From Singulisphaera sp. GP187 (GTDB lineage Bacteria > Planctomycetota > Planctomycetia > Gemmatales > Gemmataceae), in the NCBI GenBank assembly GCA_945905925.1, contig CAMDQN010000039.1, positions 1 to 48,663 on the forward strand: a stretch of DNA of 48,663 nt, read 5' to 3'. The notes under the pieces are model-generated. The model was not told the origin of the DNA, made no database searches, and saw nothing but the letters and a program-made list of their open reading frames with translations. Shown here piece by piece: positions 15,675-23,990 of the stretch (positions within the stretch are counted from its first letter, which is position 1; each line of letters starts with the position of its first letter). Made by a program: the position numbers and the translations under genes.

Positions 15675-18152
15675 TCACTTCACGGGTGGCATCAGCACGG
15701 GGAACTTCGGTACGCTCCCCGCAGTCAGCGTGAGTACGACGCCGGTCGCGGGTTCCGTGCCGTCGGTCGCTTTCGTCAGGCGCGGCTCCTGCGTGAGCCG
15801 GTCGAAGCGGAATGTGTTCGTCGCCCCGGCTTCCCACACCAGCTTCAAGTCACGCGTGCCGACCTTCATCCGGAGTTCCGCACGCAAACCGTCGCCGGCA
15901 CGGTACGCCAACTTCGTGTTGCCGTCGGGCGCGAGCGCGTACACCATCGAATCGCGAAGCGGACCTTTGCGAATCACGCCTTTACCGACCGTGAACTTCG
16001 CCACGTCCGACATCTGGTTCGCGTGCGTTACGGTGACCGTGAATTGGCCGTCAGGCGCCACGCGGTCGAACTTCAGGTCGAGTGGAATAGCCAGCTCGAA
16101 GCCCTGCAGGTCGAGGTCGAACGCCTTCTTGTCGAGGTCGCGGAGGAACTTCGCGAGGTCCGCGACCGGGTCCGGCCGGGACGGGTCTTCGAGCCGCGCG
16201 AACAACTGAAGAAGCTTGCCCCAGTCGCGGAACTTCGGGTCCGCGAGCGACGCACCCAATGCGCTCCACTCCTCGACCGTGTCCTTCACCGCGAGCAGTT
16301 TGTGGAAGTGTCGCGTGGCGGTCGCGAACGACTTCTGCACCCGGCCGACGAGTTCGCCGCGTGCCTCCCATTCGGGGTAGTCCTCGGACTGTCGCGGGTA
16401 AGTTCGTGCGAGTGCCGCGAGGCGCGCGGTTGCGAGTGCCGAGGAGTCGGTGTCGTTCGGCTCCGGGAGCACGAGGATCGCTTCCGGGCGGTTCGGTCCC
16501 GTGGTGCCGAGCGCGTCGGCCAGGTCGCGCAGATGCACGAGTTGTTGCCGCGTTTCTTTCCAGTCGTTGCGTGCCCGGTCCACCTCGTCGAACTCGAAGG
16601 GAACCCCGTAAGTCACCGCCGCGCCGCGCGACTGATTGATGGCCGGCGACCCCGGGATCGGCTCGTGCAGCGGGAACGGCGGCGGCTCCGCGGTCGCGAA
16701 CAGCGCGTCGATGTCCTTCAGCCAGCCCTCGTCGAAACTCCGCTTCAGGGTGAGAGCCGTGCCGGTGCGGCGGTACTCGCGGTAGCGGTCGCCGATCGCT
16801 TGCTGCGCGGCCTCGATCGCGGTGCAGTCGGCGAGCCACTTGTCGCGGACCTCCGCCGCGGCCGTCTCGCCCCACGAATACTCGGGCGGGAGCGCGAGGT
16901 CGGTGAGCAGCGCCTTCCGCACCGAGGCGAGGTCCGGTACGGTCGGGTCTTTGTCATCGACGCGCCGCACCGCCGCGGGTGCGATCGCGTTCCGCAGTTT
17001 GGTTCGGTACGCGTCGTAGTCGTCGATCTCCTTCAACCGGCTCTGCACGAATGCGCGGCGCTCCTCGGACAGGCTCGGGAACGCGCCGTCGCCCGTGAAC
17101 CGCGCCAGGACTTTCTTGTTCCGGTCTCGCTCGCCGTCGGCGAGGCGCTTGGCGGCGGGCTTCTCCTGTTGCCGATAGTCGTCCACCTTCGCCGCGAGGT
17201 CGGGACCTGAGGCTTCCGGCGGGAACAGCGCGATCAGCCCGAGCGTGAGGAGCAAGAACGACAGCGCCGCGAGCGCGATGCGCACAGTCCACCACAACCG
17301 CGCCTCGGACCGGTGGACTCGTTGGTGGTGCGCTCGGGCGCCCGCGAAGCAGTCGCGGAACAACTCCGCGACCTGATACGGCTGGTCGCCTGGCGCGGGG
17401 TGTTCGGTGAGCGCCGGCCGGCGGATCGCGACCGCGAACACGTCCAGATCGACGCTCCCGAACGCCAGGAACGGCGACGGAGTTTCGTCGTCACCGACCC
17501 CTTCCTTCAGGTACTCCGCGAACTTGTCGCCCGCGTAATCGATGCGGTCCTTGACGCGCGCCTCCCACGCCTGTTGCGAGTCGCCGGGCTGCGCGAGCCG
17601 GTCGCACTGCGTGAGGACGAGGAAGATCGGGAACCCGCCGACGGCGCGGGCGTCGGTCTTCGCACGCTCCACCACCGCGAGGAACTGATCGAACGCCTGG
17701 AACGCATCTTCCAACTCGTCGCGTGTGCTCGACGCGTCCACGAGCAGCATGATGGCGTCGGTTTCCACGACGGCGCGAGCGAGCGGACTTTCCGGGGCGC
17801 GCTGCGTGATCGGGTCGGGGTGCGCCATCAGCGCTTCGGCCGCCTTGCCGTCGCAGTCGTCGAGGATGACCGTGAGCGGTTCCATCAGCGGTTGCGAGCC
17901 GACCCGCCACGGTCGAAGCCGAATAGTGAAGCTCGAAAGTTCGGTGCTGGCGGATTCGAGTTTGCCACTATACGCGGCCTCGCGGATGCGCGGCAGATCG
18001 ACAGACGAACTCACGACCTCGCCGCGGAGCGTCTCGCCCTGTGTTTCGCCGGCCTGGAGGAGTGCGCCGATCAGTGCGGACTTTCCCGACCCGTGGTGCC
18101 CGAAGAGCAACACGCGGGGAACGTCGGGAACGGGTGGGTCGGGTGTGGACAT
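15675..18152 (-). CDS. membrane-anchored P-loop GTPase-like protein
   Basis: 825 residues from the ATG at 18152. Residues about 10-250 are a P-loop NTPase of GTPase type: GHHGSGKS (18-25, G1), DCDG (99-102, DxxG-like G3) and TQCD (181-184, in the G4 position where NKxD or TKxD is usual). One transmembrane helix follows at about 287-310, then a large mostly helical region and a C-terminal beta-rich part (about 690-825). This order, cytoplasmic GTPase then membrane helix then long outer part, loosely recalls IcmF/TssM, but I see no specific match. It starts 18 bases after the 227-residue membrane protein gene and appears to be the last gene of the ExbB/ExbD-like block. Function is unknown. Confidence 0.8.
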   Translation of the reverse strand: MSTPDPPVPDVPRVLLFGHHGSGKSALIGALLQAGETQGETLRGEVVSSSVDLPRIREAAYSGKLESASTELSSFTIRLRPWRVGSQPLMEPLTVILDDCDGKAAEALMAHPDPITQRAPESPLARAVVETDAIMLLVDASSTRDELEDAFQAFDQFLAVVERAKTDARAVGGFPIFLVLTQCDRLAQPGDSQQAWEARVKDRIDYAGDKFAEYLKEGVGDDETPSPFLAFGSVDLDVFAVAIRRPALTEHPAPGDQPYQVAELFRDCFAGARAHHQRVHRSEARLWWTVRIALAALSFLLLTLGLIALFPPEASGPDLAAKVDDYRQQEKPAAKRLADGERDRNKKVLARFTGDGAFPSLSEERRAFVQSRLKEIDDYDAYRTKLRNAIAPAAVRRVDDKDPTVPDLASVRKALLTDLALPPEYSWGETAAAEVRDKWLADCTAIEAAQQAIGDRYREYRRTGTALTLKRSFDEGWLKDIDALFATAEPPPFPLHEPIPGSPAINQSRGAAVTYGVPFEFDEVDRARNDWKETRQQLVHLRDLADALGTTGPNRPEAILVLPEPNDTDSSALATARLAALARTYPRQSEDYPEWEARGELVGRVQKSFATATRHFHKLLAVKDTVEEWSALGASLADPKFRDWGKLLQLFARLEDPSRPDPVADLAKFLRDLDKKAFDLDLQGFELAIPLDLKFDRVAPDGQFTVTVTHANQMSDVAKFTVGKGVIRKGPLRDSMVYALAPDGNTKLAYRAGDGLRAELRMKVGTRDLKLVWEAGATNTFRFDRLTQEPRLTKATDGTEPATGVVLTLTAGSVPKFPVLMPPVK

Positions 18153-18170
18153 GTTCGCGCCGTCGTGCGG

Positions 18171-18854
18171 TCACTCGAAGCGGCTGAGCAACTTGGCCTC
18201 TTTCACCCACGCGCTGCGCCGCTTCATCTCCGGGTGCGTGTCGGACAGTGGTTCCTTGGCGAACCGGAACACGAGAACCACCTCGGTTTTGGTGGCGTCG
18301 CGCCGGTCACTGATCGTTTTCTTCAACTCAGTGAGCGTTTTCGGCGCGCTTTCGTTGTCGATCTGGTAGAACATGCCCTCCCCATCCTTGCCGGGGCGAA
18401 CATCTGCCTCGCCGAGAATGGCGATCCGCACGTCGCCCGGTGTCGTCTTCGGGACTTCCTTCTTCGGGTCTTCCTTCTTCGGGACTTCTTTCTTCGGCTC
18501 TTCCTTCGGCACGACGGGCGCGGGCTGTTGCTTCCCGGTGTCGTCCGGTGCCTGTGTTCCCTTCTTGTCGCCCGAACTTCCGCCTCCGCCGAACAGCCCG
18601 GCGCCGCCTTCACCGAACACGATCAGCGCGACGATGATGGCCAGAGCGATGCCGCAGATAACCGAACACGCCTTCTTGAGCTGATCGGGCGCTTTGTGTG
18701 CCAACACCCACCGGTCGAGCGCCCACGCGATCGCGCCGCCGACGAAGTAGCCGACCAGAAACCCGCCGCCGACGGCCAGACACTTGATCGCGAACGTGGC
18801 CAACTTCTCGCCCGCACCGGACGCGATGCCGTCGGCGATCAGGGTTTCACACAT
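18171..18854 (-). CDS. membrane protein with Lys/Pro-rich linker and ExbD-like tail
   Basis: 227 residues. Two hydrophobic helices at about 22-47 and 62-83 are followed by a glycine-rich stretch, then a charged linker with KEEPKKEVPKKEDPKKEVPK-type repeats (about 105-140), as in TonB/TolA-style envelope-spanning arms. The last 85 residues (VRIAILGEADVRPG to the end) include TLTELKKTISDRR and TEVVLVFRF, which look like the ExbD/TolR periplasmic fold. It begins 24 bases after the ExbD-like gene. It could be a second stator partner or a force-transmitting arm. No confident family name. Confidence 0.75.
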   Translation of the reverse strand: MCETLIADGIASGAGEKLATFAIKCLAVGGGFLVGYFVGGAIAWALDRWVLAHKAPDQLKKACSVICGIALAIIVALIVFGEGGAGLFGGGGSSGDKKGTQAPDDTGKQQPAPVVPKEEPKKEVPKKEDPKKEVPKTTPGDVRIAILGEADVRPGKDGEGMFYQIDNESAPKTLTELKKTISDRRDATKTEVVLVFRFAKEPLSDTHPEMKRRSAWVKEAKLLSRFE

Positions 18855-18878
18855 GGCGGTGCGCCTCGTCAGAGCGGG

Positions 18879-19391
18879 CTACTGGAACTCGTGCGGGATC
18901 TTGTGGAACCACCCGCGAATCTGGTCTTCCTGCTTCTTCGTCGGGAACCCGAGTGGGTTCTCCGGGTAGAGGATCAGGAAGTACAGATCCTTTACCCCGC
19001 CCGCCTTGTTCGCCAGCGCCTCCTGGTCGAGAACGAACCGCCTGGCGTCTTCCTCGGTGCGAATTTCTTGCCGGTCCGGGTCGAAGTAGTAAAGCGTGCC
19101 GTCTTTCCGGTCGGTGTGGAGGACTCGCACGACGAGCCGGTCGGTGATGCGGGAGTTGGCGACCTTCTGCATTCGAGCGAGCCGGTCGCGGGCCTCGGTC
19201 AACTGACGCTGCAACTCGGGCACGCTGTCGGGCAGGGCTTCTTTCGGCGCCGCCGGTTTCACGTCGGGCGCGTCCGGCGCGGCCGGGCCGCTCACAAAGG
19301 GCATCAAAAGGAAGATGCCGAACAGCAGGATCAGGACGTCAATGAAAGGGACGAAGAACCGTGTGACGGCGCGGCGCGGCGGCGTGATCAC
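18879..19391 (-). CDS. ExbD/TolR-like protein
   Basis: 170 residues from a GTG at 19391 that overlaps the TGA stop of the ExbB-like gene in a GTGA junction; GGGGGAAG lies just upstream, so coupling is likely. A longer in-frame start at 19472 would run inside the upstream gene. One transmembrane helix (13-34) contains Asp18 in VPFIDVLILL, the place of the proton-carrying Asp in TolR/ExbD/MotB. A Pro/Ala linker and a coiled coil (about 55-75) lead to a periplasmic domain that is longer than usual. It should form a proton-driven complex with the ExbB-like protein. Confidence 0.82.
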   Translation of the reverse strand: MITPPRRAVTRFFVPFIDVLILLFGIFLLMPFVSGPAAPDAPDVKPAAPKEALPDSVPELQRQLTEARDRLARMQKVANSRITDRLVVRVLHTDRKDGTLYYFDPDRQEIRTEEDARRFVLDQEALANKAGGVKDLYFLILYPENPLGFPTKKQEDQIRGWFHKIPHEFQ

Positions 19392-19918
19392 AGCTTCCCC
19401 CCCGGCGGTTCGGGTGGCGGGGCGATTCCCGCGAGCGAGCGGATCAGGTCGCGCCCGACCGCGACGACCCACACCGGGAGGATGTTGATGAACGCCATGT
19501 ACAACCCGCCGCCGGTCGCGGTGATCGCCGGGGCGTACTTGCGGATGATTTCCTGCGGGGTCGGGTTGGAACTCGGCGTGATTGCATTAAACGTTTGAAG
19601 GATCGCGGCGACCGTCCCGATCAGGCCCAACAGCGGGAACCACTCCGCCGCTTGACAGAGGTGGCCGAGCCACCGGTCGGCCTTGGTGTCGAAGTCGGTT
19701 TCCTGCCACCGCATCGCTCGCCACGCGAACAGGGTCTGGACGGCGAACAAGGTGAACCCGATACCGATGATGATCCAGTCGATGGGCGACGTTTCGACGC
19801 GCGAGAGGTAGTCGCGACGTGCGTCGGCGGGAACGGCGAAGTAGACGAGCGCCGCGGCCAGCACCGGTACCGCGGCGAACGCGGCTGGGAGCACGAGATG
19901 GATCCAGAACCGGCGCAC
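19388..19918 (-). CDS. MotA/TolQ/ExbB-like proton channel protein
   Basis: 176 residues from a GTG at 19918 with GGAGG five bases upstream; the frame is open to 19999 but that part overlaps the thioesterase gene. Four hydrophobic helices at about 6-28, 47-66, 92-110 and 131-152. The signature halves are AEWFPLLGLIGTVAAILQTF (91-110) and AITATGGGLYMAF (131-143), matching the conserved third and fourth helices of TolQ/ExbB. It starts 20 bases after the YbgC-type gene stop, as tolQ follows ybgC in proteobacterial tol-pal operons, but TolA, TolB and Pal are absent here. Confidence 0.85.
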   Translation of the reverse strand: MRRFWIHLVLPAAFAAVPVLAAALVYFAVPADARRDYLSRVETSPIDWIIIGIGFTLFAVQTLFAWRAMRWQETDFDTKADRWLGHLCQAAEWFPLLGLIGTVAAILQTFNAITPSSNPTPQEIIRKYAPAITATGGGLYMAFINILPVWVVAVGRDLIRSLAGIAPPPEPPGGKL

Positions 19919-20336: not shown

Positions 20337-20430
20337 TGCTTCGTAGGGTGGGCAGTGCCCATCTCTTCTCTTGGAGTTACCGTTCAACTTGGTGGTTGCG
20401 CGTGGTGGGTACTGCCCACCCTACGAAGCA
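20337..20430. repeat. family C inverted repeat between signal peptidase and thioesterase genes
   Basis: Arms 20337-20361 and 20407-20430 are complementary with one mismatch; the outer part CTTCGTAGGGTGGGCAG includes the GTAGGGTGGG shared with 14550-14666. It fills almost all of the gap between two leftward genes. Confidence 0.9.
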
Positions 20431-20431
20431 T

Positions 20432-22276
20432 CTACTTGATGAACCCGACGCGGTTGGGACGCGGGTACCCGGGCCAGAACACGAACACGGCTTTCCCGAG
20501 CATCAGGCGGTCGGGCACCGTGCCCCACGAACGGCTGTCGGAACTTTGTGCGCTGTTGTCGCCCAGACAGAGGTAGTGGTCGGGGTGGACGTAGTAGATG
20601 TCGGAGCCGGTGTAGTACACGTCGCGGTGCAGCGAGAGGTGTCGCACCGAGACCTGTCCCTTCGCCCCGATGCTCGCGGGCGCGTCGATGTCGTTGGCCC
20701 GCGTCCAGCCTTCTTTGTTCGCGTCTTCAGGCTCGTAGTCTTTTGGTTCGGTGGAGTTGTAATCGGCCGCCGCGCCGAAGTCGATGCGATTCCCGTCCAC
20801 CCACACCCACAACCGGGCGTCCACGTTCGCGAACCGGAGCTTGTAGGTGCCTGCGTTCGCCTTGCACGGCTTGCTGCCCAGTTCACCCTCTTTCGTCCCG
20901 GAACGCGTGAGCGTAACCTTCCCGCCGCCGAACGTCGCGCGGAACCGGTCCGAGCCTTTCGACAGTTCCATCGCCGCCTCCGCGCCTGCGGCCAGATCGA
21001 CCTCGCACTCAAGAATGAGATCGCCGACCCAGAGTTGTTGCGGACGGCCTTCGGCGTTGTCGCGGCTCACCTCTTCATACCCCACCACGACGTTGTTTCG
21101 CATGATCGGTTTCTGGTCAGTGCCGGCGTTGTAGCCGAGCACGTTATCGACCGGGCCGGGGAAGGGCGCGCCCACCGTGAATACGCCCTGGAACACCGAG
21201 AGGCTGAGTTCCAGCGTTTTGTCGTCAGTTGCGCTGACGATCGCGGCCTCGGGGCGGGGCCATAGTTCGCGCTTCAGGGTCTCGGCCGCGTCGCGCACGC
21301 GCACGGCGCTCGTGGTGTCGGGCCAACGCCACGGGACCGGGGTTGGGGACGCCACTGAGTACGCCCAGACCGCGTGGCGGTAGCGGATCCAGTCGAGTTC
21401 CGGGCCGTTGTGCGCGAACGCGCGGGGCTGTTTCTCGTTGTCGGCCTTCCACGTTTGCTCGTTGGTCCGAACCCATCGCCGCATGCGTTCGGGCAGTTCG
21501 GTCGGTTGCTTGTCGTTGTTCCACACGACGCGCCGGTCGGCGAGTATCTGGTCTTCGCCCTTGCGCACGATCTGGAACCCGCCCTCCACCGCACCGGTGA
21601 ACTCGGCTTGACGCGACGCCTTGAATAACTCCTGCGCACGTGTGCTGTTTGCGTACATGAATGGCTTGCGCCACAGGTCCAGCGGGTCCGTGGGCTGCGC
21701 GAACTCGCCCTCGGGATACGTGAGCGACTTGGTCACATACAATTCGCCGCGGTGGATCGCGATTGTCTCGCCGCCGAACCCCATCGCCCGCTTGATGTAG
21801 TTCTGGGCCGTGTGGAGCGTTTGTGGGTCTTCCGGGTACTTGAACACGACCACGTCGCCGCGGCGCGGCGGCCTGACGTGGAACAGCGGTTTCAGAACGA
21901 GGACGCGGTCGCCGGTGCGGTTATCCGGGTGCGGGTTCAGGTCATCGACGTTCCCCTCGTGCCGGCAGTTCGGGCAGTAGAACTTGATCAACTTGTGCTT
22001 CATCTTGGTCTGCGAGTTGACCTCGACCTCGTCATGCGAGTTGACCGGGAACTCGTGGGCACACTTCGGGCACGTGATGACCTTCTGGTAGCCGTAGAGC
22101 GTTTCGGCCATCGACCCAGTGGGGATGACGAACGCCTCGGTGACGAACAGCTTCAGGAGCAGCACGAGAACCACGACGAAGACGACCGTTTCGATGACCT
22201 CGCGGGCAGGGTCGCGTGCGGCTTTTGCCTTCTCATCCGTGGCGTCTTTGGCGGGAGCGGCTGCGGCAGTTGACAT
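20432..22276 (-). CDS. signal peptidase I with zinc ribbon and large inserted domain (copy 1)
   Basis: 614 residues, far longer than a typical type I signal peptidase (E. coli 324). One N-terminal helix (about 28-47) anchors it. Catalytic Ser55 is in IPTGSM and Lys162 in NYIKRAMGFGGE. Between them is a zinc ribbon with Cys69/Cys72 and Cys101/Cys104. After Lys162 about 400 residues intervene before GDNSAQSSDSR (572-582), the box E motif that normally comes about 130 residues later. The insert includes a beta-rich segment (about 415-500, LILECEVDLAAG) that looks like a concanavalin-type jelly roll. It removes signal peptides at the outer face of the membrane. A paralogue lies directly upstream. 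Confidence 0.9.
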   Translation of the reverse strand: MSTAAAAPAKDATDEKAKAARDPAREVIETVVFVVVLVLLLKLFVTEAFVIPTGSMAETLYGYQKVITCPKCAHEFPVNSHDEVEVNSQTKMKHKLIKFYCPNCRHEGNVDDLNPHPDNRTGDRVLVLKPLFHVRPPRRGDVVVFKYPEDPQTLHTAQNYIKRAMGFGGETIAIHRGELYVTKSLTYPEGEFAQPTDPLDLWRKPFMYANSTRAQELFKASRQAEFTGAVEGGFQIVRKGEDQILADRRVVWNNDKQPTELPERMRRWVRTNEQTWKADNEKQPRAFAHNGPELDWIRYRHAVWAYSVASPTPVPWRWPDTTSAVRVRDAAETLKRELWPRPEAAIVSATDDKTLELSLSVFQGVFTVGAPFPGPVDNVLGYNAGTDQKPIMRNNVVVGYEEVSRDNAEGRPQQLWVGDLILECEVDLAAGAEAAMELSKGSDRFRATFGGGKVTLTRSGTKEGELGSKPCKANAGTYKLRFANVDARLWVWVDGNRIDFGAAADYNSTEPKDYEPEDANKEGWTRANDIDAPASIGAKGQVSVRHLSLHRDVYYTGSDIYYVHPDHYLCLGDNSAQSSDSRSWGTVPDRLMLGKAVFVFWPGYPRPNRVGFIK

Positions 22277-22346
22277 GCGGGCCTCACTACGGGCGGAAAT
22301 CGGCGTCGTTCTGTATTCGTCCGCGCCGCGCGGAAATTCTACAGTG

Positions 22347-22401
22347 TTCTCGCCGCTTGCGGCTTCGCGAGCTTATACCCGCGAAGCCGCAAGCGGCGAA
22401 A
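22347..22401. repeat. perfect 19-base inverted repeat between two signal peptidase genes
   Basis: CGCCGCTTGCGGCTTCGCG (22351-22369) is exactly mirrored by the complement at 22380-22398, with a ten-base loop. It lies in the leader of the downstream signal peptidase gene. The CCGCAAGCGG core also occurs in the small hairpin at 12843-12860. Confidence 0.9.
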
Positions 22402-22404
22402 GCA

Positions 22405-23976
22405 TTAATGCAACCACCGGAGGCGGGACCAGTCGAGCATCGGAAACTCGCGCTCGCGTCCGCCGACCGACATCCGTCCGAGCCGGAGCGGTTGGTGAAT
22501 CAGGAATGGTTTACCGATGAGGGAGCTTTCCGGCACGGCCGGGGTCGGCCATTTCCGGCTGTCCTCGGAGTTCCCGCTGTTGTCGCCCAACACGAAGTAC
22601 TCGCGCGGGCCGAGCACGGCCGGGTTACGCGTACCGTGGTAGTCGTTCGATTCCGCCGTGTAGTGGATGTCGCGGAACAACTTCAGGTCGCGCACCACCA
22701 CGCGACACCCGCGCGCGCCGAACCGCAACGGCTTCGATTCCGGCTCGCGCCTCACCGGAGCCTCCAGGTCGACCGGCGGCGCGACCACGCGCCCGTTGAG
22801 CGCGAGGATGACGCGGCGGTCCACGAACGCGAACTCCAACTTGTATTTGCGCTCGGGTTCGAGTGCAACGCCGCTGGCGGTGCTCAACCCGCCGTGGCCT
22901 TCGCGGATGAGTTGCGCACGCCCGGTTTTCCGCGGACCAACGGTGAGTTCGGCCGTGACCGTGTCGGCGCCGTCGTTGAGCCGACAGTCGAAGCACGCTT
23001 CGCCCGCCGCGCCGACCGCCGCAATCACTTCTACTTCACAGGTCAGGTAGAAGTCGTGTGCGATGGGCAGGTCGCTGCGGCGCGTGGGGCCGTCGTAAGA
23101 ATTCCACGCGAACACCGGCTTCTCCTTGCGGTCGTCCAGGTGCCAGTGCCGGTACCGGATCGTGGTCGTTGCCTGTGGCGTGCTTGAGGCGTCCATCACG
23201 AGCGCGTTGTTCTCGATCGCGGGCGACCCTGTTGCTTTCGGGGCCGCGCCGAGCGGCAGTCGCGGGTCGCCGCCCGGCTCGCTCACCCAGCGAATGTGCC
23301 AGCCGCCGGTCGGCGCGAAGTTCATGTCGAACACTGGGAACAGTGTTTCGCGCACTTCCGCAAGTCCTTTGCGCGCGATTAGCCCGTTCACATACACGTC
23401 GCCGTCCACGATGGTGATAGTTTCCCCGGGCAACCCGACGAGCCGCTTCACATAGGGCTTGCCGAACTCCTCGTTCGGGTTCGGGCACCTGAAAACGACC
23501 ATTTCCCACCGGCGCGGCGAGCGCAGGTCGTAGATGTTCTTGTCCACGAGGAGCCGGTCGCCGCTGAGGTCGCGCGCGTCCGCGAGCGAGAGCGGGTGGT
23601 AGTCGCAGTTCGGGCAGGTGACTTTGCGGAAGTGCTCGTTGACGTTGCCGCTGGTCGGTCGGCCGACGCGAACCGTGTAGTTGCACCGCGGGCAGAACCC
23701 GTCGCGGTGGTGGCCGCTGAGGGCCGGTGCCATGCTCCCGGTCGGCACGCCGAACGGTTCGACGGCGATCGTGCGCAACACGAGGAACAGCCCGACGAAC
23801 GCGGCGATTACGACGATGAGTGCGCGGAACGGAGAGACGTTCCGGTGGAGCGTGGTGTGCGGTGTTGGCGTTGGTGAACTGGGAGCGTGAGCGACCGGGG
23901 TCGGTTTTGGCGCGGGAGGTGGCTCTTCTGGGGGAAGTTCCAGCGCGGTGGGTAGCGGTGTGTCGGTGGGGTCCAT
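22405..23976 (-). CDS. signal peptidase I with zinc ribbon and inserted domain (copy 2)
   Basis: 523 residues from the ATG at 23976 with GAAGAAA upstream; a TTG at 23982 is the other option. A Pro-rich cytoplasmic N-terminus (1-45) precedes one helix (about 52-70). Catalytic Ser81 is in VPTGSM and Lys177 in YVKRLVGLPGE. A zinc ribbon (Cys95/Cys98, Cys121/Cys124) lies between them. Box E GDNSGNSEDSR starts at 464, about 290 residues after Lys177. The insert has a beta-rich part (FYLTCEVEVIAAVG) like that of copy 1. The two are diverged paralogues sharing the same odd architecture. lepA is directly upstream on the same strand, as lepA-lepB pairs are in many bacteria. Confidence 0.9.
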   Translation of the reverse strand: MDPTDTPLPTALELPPEEPPPAPKPTPVAHAPSSPTPTPHTTLHRNVSPFRALIVVIAAFVGLFLVLRTIAVEPFGVPTGSMAPALSGHHRDGFCPRCNYTVRVGRPTSGNVNEHFRKVTCPNCDYHPLSLADARDLSGDRLLVDKNIYDLRSPRRWEMVVFRCPNPNEEFGKPYVKRLVGLPGETITIVDGDVYVNGLIARKGLAEVRETLFPVFDMNFAPTGGWHIRWVSEPGGDPRLPLGAAPKATGSPAIENNALVMDASSTPQATTTIRYRHWHLDDRKEKPVFAWNSYDGPTRRSDLPIAHDFYLTCEVEVIAAVGAAGEACFDCRLNDGADTVTAELTVGPRKTGRAQLIREGHGGLSTASGVALEPERKYKLEFAFVDRRVILALNGRVVAPPVDLEAPVRREPESKPLRFGARGCRVVVRDLKLFRDIHYTAESNDYHGTRNPAVLGPREYFVLGDNSGNSEDSRKWPTPAVPESSLIGKPFLIHQPLRLGRMSVGGREREFPMLDWSRLRWLH

Positions 23977-23990
23977 TGACAATTTCTTCA

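Follow-up and report, generated by a model that had tools for sequence, protein, structure and literature searches.

A diverged TolQ/TolR-type stator gene block linked to a putative transmembrane GTPase in Gemmata-type planctomycetes

Here we describe a block of closely spaced minus-strand genes in a 48,663-nucleotide stretch of DNA (the window; contig C39, GenBank CAMDQN010000039.1) from a 6.47 Mb genome assigned to Singulisphaera sp. GP187 of the family Gemmataceae. The block encodes an ExbB/TolQ-type channel protein, an ExbD/TolR-type subunit with a membrane aspartate (the Asp subunit), a third membrane protein with an ExbD-like domain and an 825-residue GTPase-like protein with one membrane helix. 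As judged from sequence, the case for the identity of the motor and its gene linkage is strong, with good support for both motor and association. We tentatively propose, as a possible interpretation, that the block may encode a trans-envelope machine driven by the proton-motive force (PMF), Tol-like in role and with the transmembrane GTPase as its partner; its function and its coupling to GTP are what we infer. An earlier note, made from the letters of the window, had pointed to an ion-driven stator combined with a membrane GTPase, a system it could not name. The block matched none of the named systems that could be tested here, and is a variant of the MotA/TolQ/ExbB stator class, not a new class.

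Channel protein and Asp subunit

The channel protein matched PF01618 with 38.9 bits (cut-off 22.9) and has four hydrophobic helices by hydropathy, at residues 8-26, 46-64, 96-114 and 136-154, with a short cytoplasmic loop, in agreement with the ExbB/TolQ-like four-helix protein of the earlier note. MotA has four helices and TolQ three, and in this arrangement the window channel is like MotA and unlike TolQ. The top relatives of the channel family profile in the PDB were TolQ (E 0.009) and ExbB (E 0.03), and an alignment of the profile to TolQ with HMMER supplied the register in which Thr102 and Thr135 correspond to the two TolQ threonines (Table 1). The Asp subunit has a single helix by hydropathy, and the aspartate in it, already picked out in the earlier note, is invariant in the family.

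PF02472 (ExbD) matched 19 of the 57 family members at E 0.1 and did not match the window protein at that threshold; the ExbD of a distant cousin locus (L164) passed the cut-off (27.0 bits against 25.4). Because PF02472 sees few members, yet the threonines and the aspartate are kept, the motor is, on sequence criteria, a diverged stator retaining residues known to matter in its relatives. No OmpA-like peptidoglycan-binding domain was matched by Pfam in the window Asp subunit; MotB_plug matched 7/57 members (best E 0.0025), and OmpA was not among the 25 families listed.

Third protein

The third protein has helices at residues 25-43 and 62-80 joined by a positively charged loop, followed by a linker rich in proline, glutamate and lysine and by a C-terminal domain. 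Its AlphaFold2 model has a mean predicted local distance difference test (pLDDT) of 80.1, mostly at least 87 from residue 141 onwards, and the C-terminal domain has the order beta-beta-alpha-beta-alpha-beta. Foldseek gave ExbD 8vgd_B as the best match, with a probability of 0.90 but a weak E of 0.21, and nothing at E 0.001. In VIA the protein matched ExbD 8p9r (Z 7.9, 72 aligned residues, root-mean-square deviation (rmsd) 2.4 Å) and TolR 5by4 (Z 7.2), and with the C-terminal domain the unrelated rows dropped to Z 5.6. An hhalign comparison with the operon's own ExbD aligned the same domains (probability 36%, E 4e-4; with deeper alignments 27%, E 7e-4). These results accord with the charged linker and ExbD-like tail seen in the earlier note, the best fold matches being ExbD and TolR. 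The family alignment contains no conserved acidic residue inside either helix, and the third protein is therefore unlikely to carry ions. For the same lack of a conserved acid we rejected the possibility that it is a second Asp-bearing TolR.

GTPase protein

The GTPase protein was modelled with AlphaFold2 at a mean pLDDT of 87.9 and comprises a G domain (residues 1-260), a membrane helix (about 284-309), an all-helical region (317-671) and a beta region (678-813). The window protein carries P-loop, DxxG and TQCD motifs and a small-GTPase fold, so that its description as GTPase-like with one membrane helix proved accurate. Among relatives, DxxG is kept in 26/30 aligned sequences and the P-loop is present in all nine further loci inspected, L208 among them, in addition to the counts in Table 1. 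The G domain resembled RagC/D (Z 18.0 over 177-178 residues, rmsd 2.5-2.7), Arl proteins and SR-beta (Z 15.7). At the level of Pfam, Double-GTPase 2 matched 16 of the 30 members at E 0.1 (best 1.8e-6), MMR_HSR1 14 (best 1.7e-5) and IcmF-related_N (PF14331) two (best E 0.02).

For the second half of the protein, about 500 residues, no convincing sequence relative of known structure was found (best E 0.9). Whole-model fold searches were filled by the G domain, and the absence of TssM chains from the rows shown excludes nothing. The helices have positively charged residues next to them on the side presumed to be cytoplasmic, and the G domain is probably cytoplasmic, to judge from its class and from this placement of charge. 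The membrane helix was also considered as a TonB-like transducer; the histidine motif of TonB/TolA-type transducer helices, as described in excerpts of PMC12204202, is not conserved in it, and the candidate was rejected.

Conservation of the gene order

A channel-profile scan of the named genomes yielded 61 loci, mostly with Gemmataceae, Gemmata, Fimbriiglobus, Limnoglobus or planctomycete titles and a few others; neighbours were counted only in loci with enough flank. Upstream of exbB stand ybgC (51/56 loci), lepB (41/51) and lepA (31/45), and downstream exbD is next in 57/58, followed by the third gene in 45/52 and the GTPase gene in 28/39. Split by content, 39 loci hold the third gene and GTPase together in 28 cases, the third gene only in five, the GTPase only in none and neither in six. 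The loci were selected by the channel gene, and these counts are silent on GTPases without a motor. The earlier note had made conservation of the gene order in relatives the test of its four-gene block, and the order does recur in most loci. The togetherness of the four genes is not invariable, the GTPase gene lying elsewhere, in part as fragments, in 15 of the 19 genomes that showed none, or no clear one, beside exbB.

Nor does the block begin where the earlier note placed its start. The four genes are real and linked, with the coordinates, lengths and spacings given there all correct: exbB and exbD overlap by 4 bases, and gaps of 24 and 18 bases separate exbD from the third gene and the third gene from the GTPase gene. 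The first gene is ybgC, which had been missed; it lies 20 bases upstream of exbB and is part of the conserved block, which thus has the head of a Tol operon. Its protein scored 101 bits against TIGR02799 (tol-pal associated), below the cut-off of 141.35. All four downstream genes are under purifying selection (ratio of nonsynonymous to synonymous substitution rates, dN/dS, 0.08-0.34 against two relatives by the simple Nei-Gojobori method), which together with conservation in relatives rules out chance open reading frames.

The GTPase was found in 24 of 41 genomes, the source genome included: in 17/18 other genomes of the same genus, 5/6 of other genera of the family, 1/7 of another family of the order and 0/9 of other orders. 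Nearly all genomes of the family have the block (GTPase in 22/24), and it occurs in one copy per genome, in G015 as two contig pieces. The channel profile was run on 18 of the 41 genomes: G024 and the 17 in which no GTPase had been matched. It matched strongly (217-252 bits) in G020, G024, G028 and G029 and more weakly (66 bits) in G027; G006 and G034 had no match at E 0.001, and the other 11 genomes gave only the 23-33 bits expected of other ExbB proteins. Two loci, L097 with a Bacteroidales title and L128 with a Candidatus Kuenenia title, carry the block with lepA, lepB and ybgC upstream; they are probably mislabelled records or mixed bins.

Broken operons and related loci

Limnoglobus-like and Zavarzinella genomes, and some others besides, have a broken operon. 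A GTPase-profile search covered 22 genomes, 19 without a GTPase or a clear one beside exbB (absent or cut off by the contig) and three with one (L114, L129, L133); a match at E 0.001 was obtained in 18 of them, the three and 15 of the 19, with fragments or low-score matches only in G505, G506, G509, G513 and G514. In G498, G499, G500 and G501 the third gene and GTPase gene lie together away from exbB, and in G499 metF (PF02219, 312.7 bits) still comes next after the relocated pair, which is the arrangement of the window. In G502 exbD, the third gene and the GTPase gene lie together elsewhere and exbB remains with ybgC. Zavarzinella (G504) keeps the third gene together with exbD and has the GTPase gene on another contig. 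Because the third gene and the GTPase gene stay paired in broken operons, the modules seem to be ybgC-exbB-exbD and third gene-GTPase, which probably once formed one operon.

Beyond the order, a search of 392 genomes with the channel profile at E 1e-9 gave, in the 391 other than the source genome, five weak matches of 40-51 bits (the rows shown list eight scored candidates for each genome); the surroundings of one of them, G404, showed none of the other block genes. The GTPase profile matched none of the 391 genomes, a weak absence, as the rows shown list two scored candidates for each genome. G065, G089, G109 and G127, which belong to two other planctomycete families, have a channel, an Asp subunit and a third protein in the order seen in the window, followed by a beta-helix protein in place of the GTPase (loci L162-L165). 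This large protein has an N-terminal hydrophobic stretch and a right-handed beta-helix (PF13229, PF05048). The cousin third proteins are homologous to those of the window group (hhalign 88.3%, E 2.9e-6) and have one helix by eye, against two in the window. The pairing of stator and GTPase set out in the earlier note thus holds in the Gemmata group and gives way to another partner in these relatives. Because the cousins keep the third protein with a beta-helix instead of a GTPase, the large protein appears exchangeable and the constant partner seems to be the third protein.

In G027, of the same order and another family, the locus (L147:5766-8424) encodes a channel, an Asp subunit, two proteins with ExbD-like tails by eye and a 431-residue protein, which by layout only may be a degenerate GTPase. 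As a separate observation, L165:2469-4978 holds a second ExbB/ExbD pair near the first motor, with a vWA-domain protein (PF13768, 66 bits) and an ExbD that carries a GYF_2 domain; this pair resembles the vWA transducer loci in excerpts of PMC12204202.

Comparison with known systems

One of the closest comparisons is with Tol-Pal (ybgC-tolQ-tolR-tolA-tolB-pal), whose operon head ybgC-tolQ-tolR (excerpts of PMC12204202) has the same three genes in the same order as the window block. The channel is of TolQ type with both threonines, TolQ being the best PDB relative of its profile, and the Asp subunit has the aspartate of TolR type. Where TolA stands in Tol-Pal, the window has the two-helix protein with the ExbD-like domain and the transmembrane GTPase. 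As the earlier note had maintained, Pfam matched no TolA, TonB_C or OmpA-type domain in the four proteins. TolB_N (PF04052) was matched in 0/102 genomes of the order at E 0.001, with three control genomes, including Escherichia coli, positive, and canonical Tol-Pal was rejected for the lack of a TolB match in the order. Pal was not found in the source genome, whose only OmpA match is an MlaD-OmpA fusion and neither Pal nor MotB; in other genomes of the order the OmpA matches number zero, one or two (counts only). The fusion, at L148:1432-2655, is a protein of 407 residues with an MlaD match of 61.5 bits and a C-terminal OmpA domain of 41 bits. Because the head is that of ybgC-tolQ-tolR, with no TolB in the order and no Pal in the genome, the block suggests a Tol-like envelope machine with different output parts.

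Other stator systems differ in their partners. The window block is without the TonB C-terminal domain of ExbBD-TonB, and its Asp subunit is without the OmpA-like peptidoglycan-binding domain of MotAB. In the Myxococcus gliding motor AglQ and AglS both carry a membrane aspartate, and MglA is a small soluble protein. That motor, AglRQS, is bound by the Ras-like GTPase MglA and has two MotB/TolR-like proteins (excerpts of PMC9120999), and like it the window combines a MotA/TolQ-type motor, two MotB/TolR-like proteins and a Ras-like GTPase. In the window GTPase the G domain instead continues into a membrane helix and a large second half, and the second TolR-like protein of the block is without a conserved membrane acid.

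The vWA force transducers that lie beside tolQ/tolR-like genes in the Planctomycetes-Verrucomicrobia-Chlamydiae group (excerpts of PMC12204202) likewise involve planctomycete motors with two unlike TolR-type proteins and a partner other than TolA; the window partner is the GTPase protein, with no vWA match at E 1. The G domain shows a weak likeness to the DO-GTPase families PF19993 and PF19975, matched in 16 and 2 of the 30 members at E 0.1, and the window protein scored 17.5 bits against Double-GTPase (cut-off 27). Some DO-GTPases have membrane segments, according to excerpts of PMC7159879; the systems described there differ in their neighbours, the window having metF and not GAP1 downstream. 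We found no description of this block in the open-licence papers searched on ExbB/ExbD/TolQ/TolR with GTPases, Gemmata or Planctomycetes.

TssM of type VI secretion has the domain order GTPase, helix, alpha region and beta region. The GTPase protein, compared by layout, has the same order, and PF06761 was above cut-off in 0/102 genomes of the order. For TssM as a candidate relative, the domain order is suggestive and the sequence profiles gave nothing firm.

Proposed mechanism and alternatives

In the machine that we tentatively propose, five channel and two ExbD subunits would form a rotary motor. The ExbD-like domain of the third protein, on its flexible linker, might dock to or pair with the periplasmic domains of ExbD. 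The GTPase protein would place its G domain in the cytoplasm and an alpha-beta arm in the periplasm, and may act as a transducer or clutch in which the nucleotide state sets when the arm engages the motor as well as the wall or outer membrane. MglA, which binds the AglRQS motor, is a precedent for a GTPase that acts on a stator of this kind (excerpts of PMC9120999). The probable task of the machine would be tethering or constriction of outer membrane and wall during growth and budding in Gemmata-type bacteria.

Several points weigh against this proposal. The envelope role is drawn by analogy only, YbgC, present across nearly all phyla, may have a role apart from Tol (excerpts of PMC8871954), and no recognisable wall- or outer-membrane-binding domain was found in the block proteins. 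Contact between the GTPase protein and the motor is hypothetical, and the GTPase gene is not beside exbB in 11/39 loci, was not found in 4 of the 22 genomes searched for it (G027, G497, G508 and G510) and is present as fragments only in others. The block is patchy in the sister family of the same order, and the beta-helix loci of the two other families do without a GTPase. The GTPase membrane helix has a histidine in 1/30 sequences and none conserved of the TonB/TolA kind. The likeness of the third protein to ExbD rests on weak scores: its helix hairpin matches unrelated proteins at the same Z (TIM23 7.8), Z alone being no proof, and the cousin third proteins did not match the ExbD profile (0.1%, E 0.49). 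Coupling of GTP to the motor is conjecture, and the P-loop, missing in 3/30 relatives (L127, L133, L134), speaks against a universal need; DxxG is missing in 4/30, and the 431-residue protein of L147 has a helix, no P-loop and no profile match. From these losses, GTP use is, on sequence evidence, not universal.

The alternative that survives best, though we consider it unlikely, is that the GTPase protein is mainly a scaffold or localiser, with a G domain that positions the motor through its binding of nucleotide or of a partner, a third protein that carries the force, and GTP hydrolysis outside the work cycle. This would account for the protein being kept where the P-loop is lost, the L147 cousin protein included, for the two other families that have motor and third protein without an adjacent GTPase, and for the third protein being the more constant neighbour (45/52 against 28/39 loci), but the retention of the P-loop (27/30, and 9/9 further loci) and of DxxG in most members argues for a kept nucleotide-binding role.

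We regard it as improbable that the block is a conventional energiser of ExbBD type that powers import or secretion across the outer membrane, with an unrecognised transducer in the place of TonB. The channel belongs to the same superfamily, with ExbB among its PDB relatives, and the large second half of the GTPase protein would suit such a role; three other ExbB loci in the genome, each with two ExbD genes, could serve this function instead, no receptor gene was seen among the neighbours scanned, TonB_C was not matched in the four proteins, and the linkage to ybgC points elsewhere. An engine for surface motility or surface transport, on the pattern of AglRQS with MglA, likewise has a low probability in our estimate, as has an energiser of secretion. 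Motor, Ras-like GTPase and two MotB/TolR-like proteins make up the Agl/MglA recipe (excerpts of PMC9120999), but the scanned neighbours include no genes for gliding or secretion, the third protein has no conserved membrane acid, and the GTPase, unlike MglA, is anchored in the membrane and has a large second half.

If the genes were neighbours that share no function, a motor beside an unrelated membrane GTPase, this would explain why the operon is broken in several genomes; such a lack of common function is very improbable, the third gene and GTPase gene staying together when moved (5 genomes) and the GTPase gene never being beside exbB without the third gene (0/39). We give almost no credence to an anti-phage defence motor like Zorya, a role suggested in the earlier note and favoured by the unusual context of the stator and by the weak G-domain likeness to Double-GTPases of conflict systems predicted in excerpts of PMC7159879 (16/30 at E 0.1, best 1.8e-6), in view of the lack of a PADLOC match at E 0.01 (0/5 proteins, none of the four), the single copy (two contig pieces in G015) in 17/18 same-genus genomes, the stable core-gene neighbourhood (lepA 31/45, lepB 41/51 loci) and metF, not GAP1, downstream of the GTPase gene.

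Genomic neighbourhood

On the minus strand the genes are ordered lepA, two signal-peptidase genes, ybgC, exbB-like, exbD-like, third gene, GTPase gene, metF and ggt (Table 1). The tandem signal peptidase I genes (window 20432-23982) encode proteins of 614 and 525 residues, in each of which Peptidase_S26 is matched in separate pieces; the 614-residue protein also has a weak zinc-ribbon-like (CpXC) match, and the pair adjoining lepA recurs in many of the loci. Between lepB and ybgC, at 20337-20430, lies an inverted repeat of 25 nucleotides, 96% complementary and with arms 44 nucleotides apart. Its core also occurs as facing pairs in L148 of the source genome and in L174/L208 of one other genome, and because of this recurrence the repeat may be a dispersed palindromic element.

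Table 1. Coordinates of the block, its neighbours and the residues and domains discussed (aa, amino acids)
Feature	Position in window	Strand	Remarks
lepA	25864-24062	minus	
Two signal-peptidase genes	23982-22405 and 22276-20432	minus	
ybgC-type acyl-CoA thioesterase gene, 128 aa	19939..20325	minus	First gene of the block; TIGR00051 91.4 bits, cut-off 68.7
exbB-like gene, TolQ/ExbB/MotA-type channel subunit, 176 aa	19388..19918	minus	Four helices; GTG start; PF01618
ExbB Thr102 (E. coli TolQ Thr145)	19613..19615	minus	T in 62/62 rows
ExbB Thr135 (E. coli TolQ Thr178)	19514..19516	minus	T in 61/62 rows, remaining row a gap
exbD-like gene, TolR/ExbD-type subunit, 170 aa	18879..19391	minus	GTG start; one helix, linker, C-terminal domain
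ExbD Asp18, in the membrane helix and presumed to carry the ion	19338..19340	minus	Invariant in 57/57 sequences
Third gene, 227 aa	18171..18854	minus	ATG start; two helices, P/E/K-rich linker, ExbD-like domain
ExbD/TolR-like periplasmic domain of third protein, residues 139-227	18174..18440	minus	AlphaFold2 model, fold search
GTPase gene, 825 aa	15675..18152	minus	ATG start; AlphaFold2 model, orthologues
P-loop GHHGSGKS, residues 18-25	18078..18101	minus	GxxxxGK[S/T] in 27/30 sequences
G4 motif TQCD, residues 181-184	17601..17612	minus	T[Q/K]CD in 21/30; looser [TSNA][KQRH]xD in 28/30
Membrane helix of GTPase protein	17226..17303	minus	Hydropathy; long helix 261-309 in model
metF	15573-14671	minus	Next gene downstream of GTPase gene
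ggt	14539-12866	minus	

Conclusions

A bolder form of the proposal, which we hold to be possible but doubtful, is that the machine would use two energy sources: a proton motor of TolQR type, switched or clutched by a membrane-spanning GTPase, may replace Tol-Pal in Gemmata-type bacteria, and a planctomycete branch of stators, made up of channel, Asp subunit and third ExbD-like protein, may swap its output protein between a GTPase arm and a beta-helix. The known outputs of stators form a short list of TolA, TonB, MotB, ZorB, the Agl machinery and vWA proteins (in part after excerpts of PMC12204202). If true, a transmembrane GTPase would be a new stator output and possibly a new way of gating a motor. 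Cells of Gemmata bud and have a highly folded envelope, and the finding would bear on how such cells hold and constrict that envelope. Planctomycetes are without FtsZ, according to excerpts of PMC8871954.

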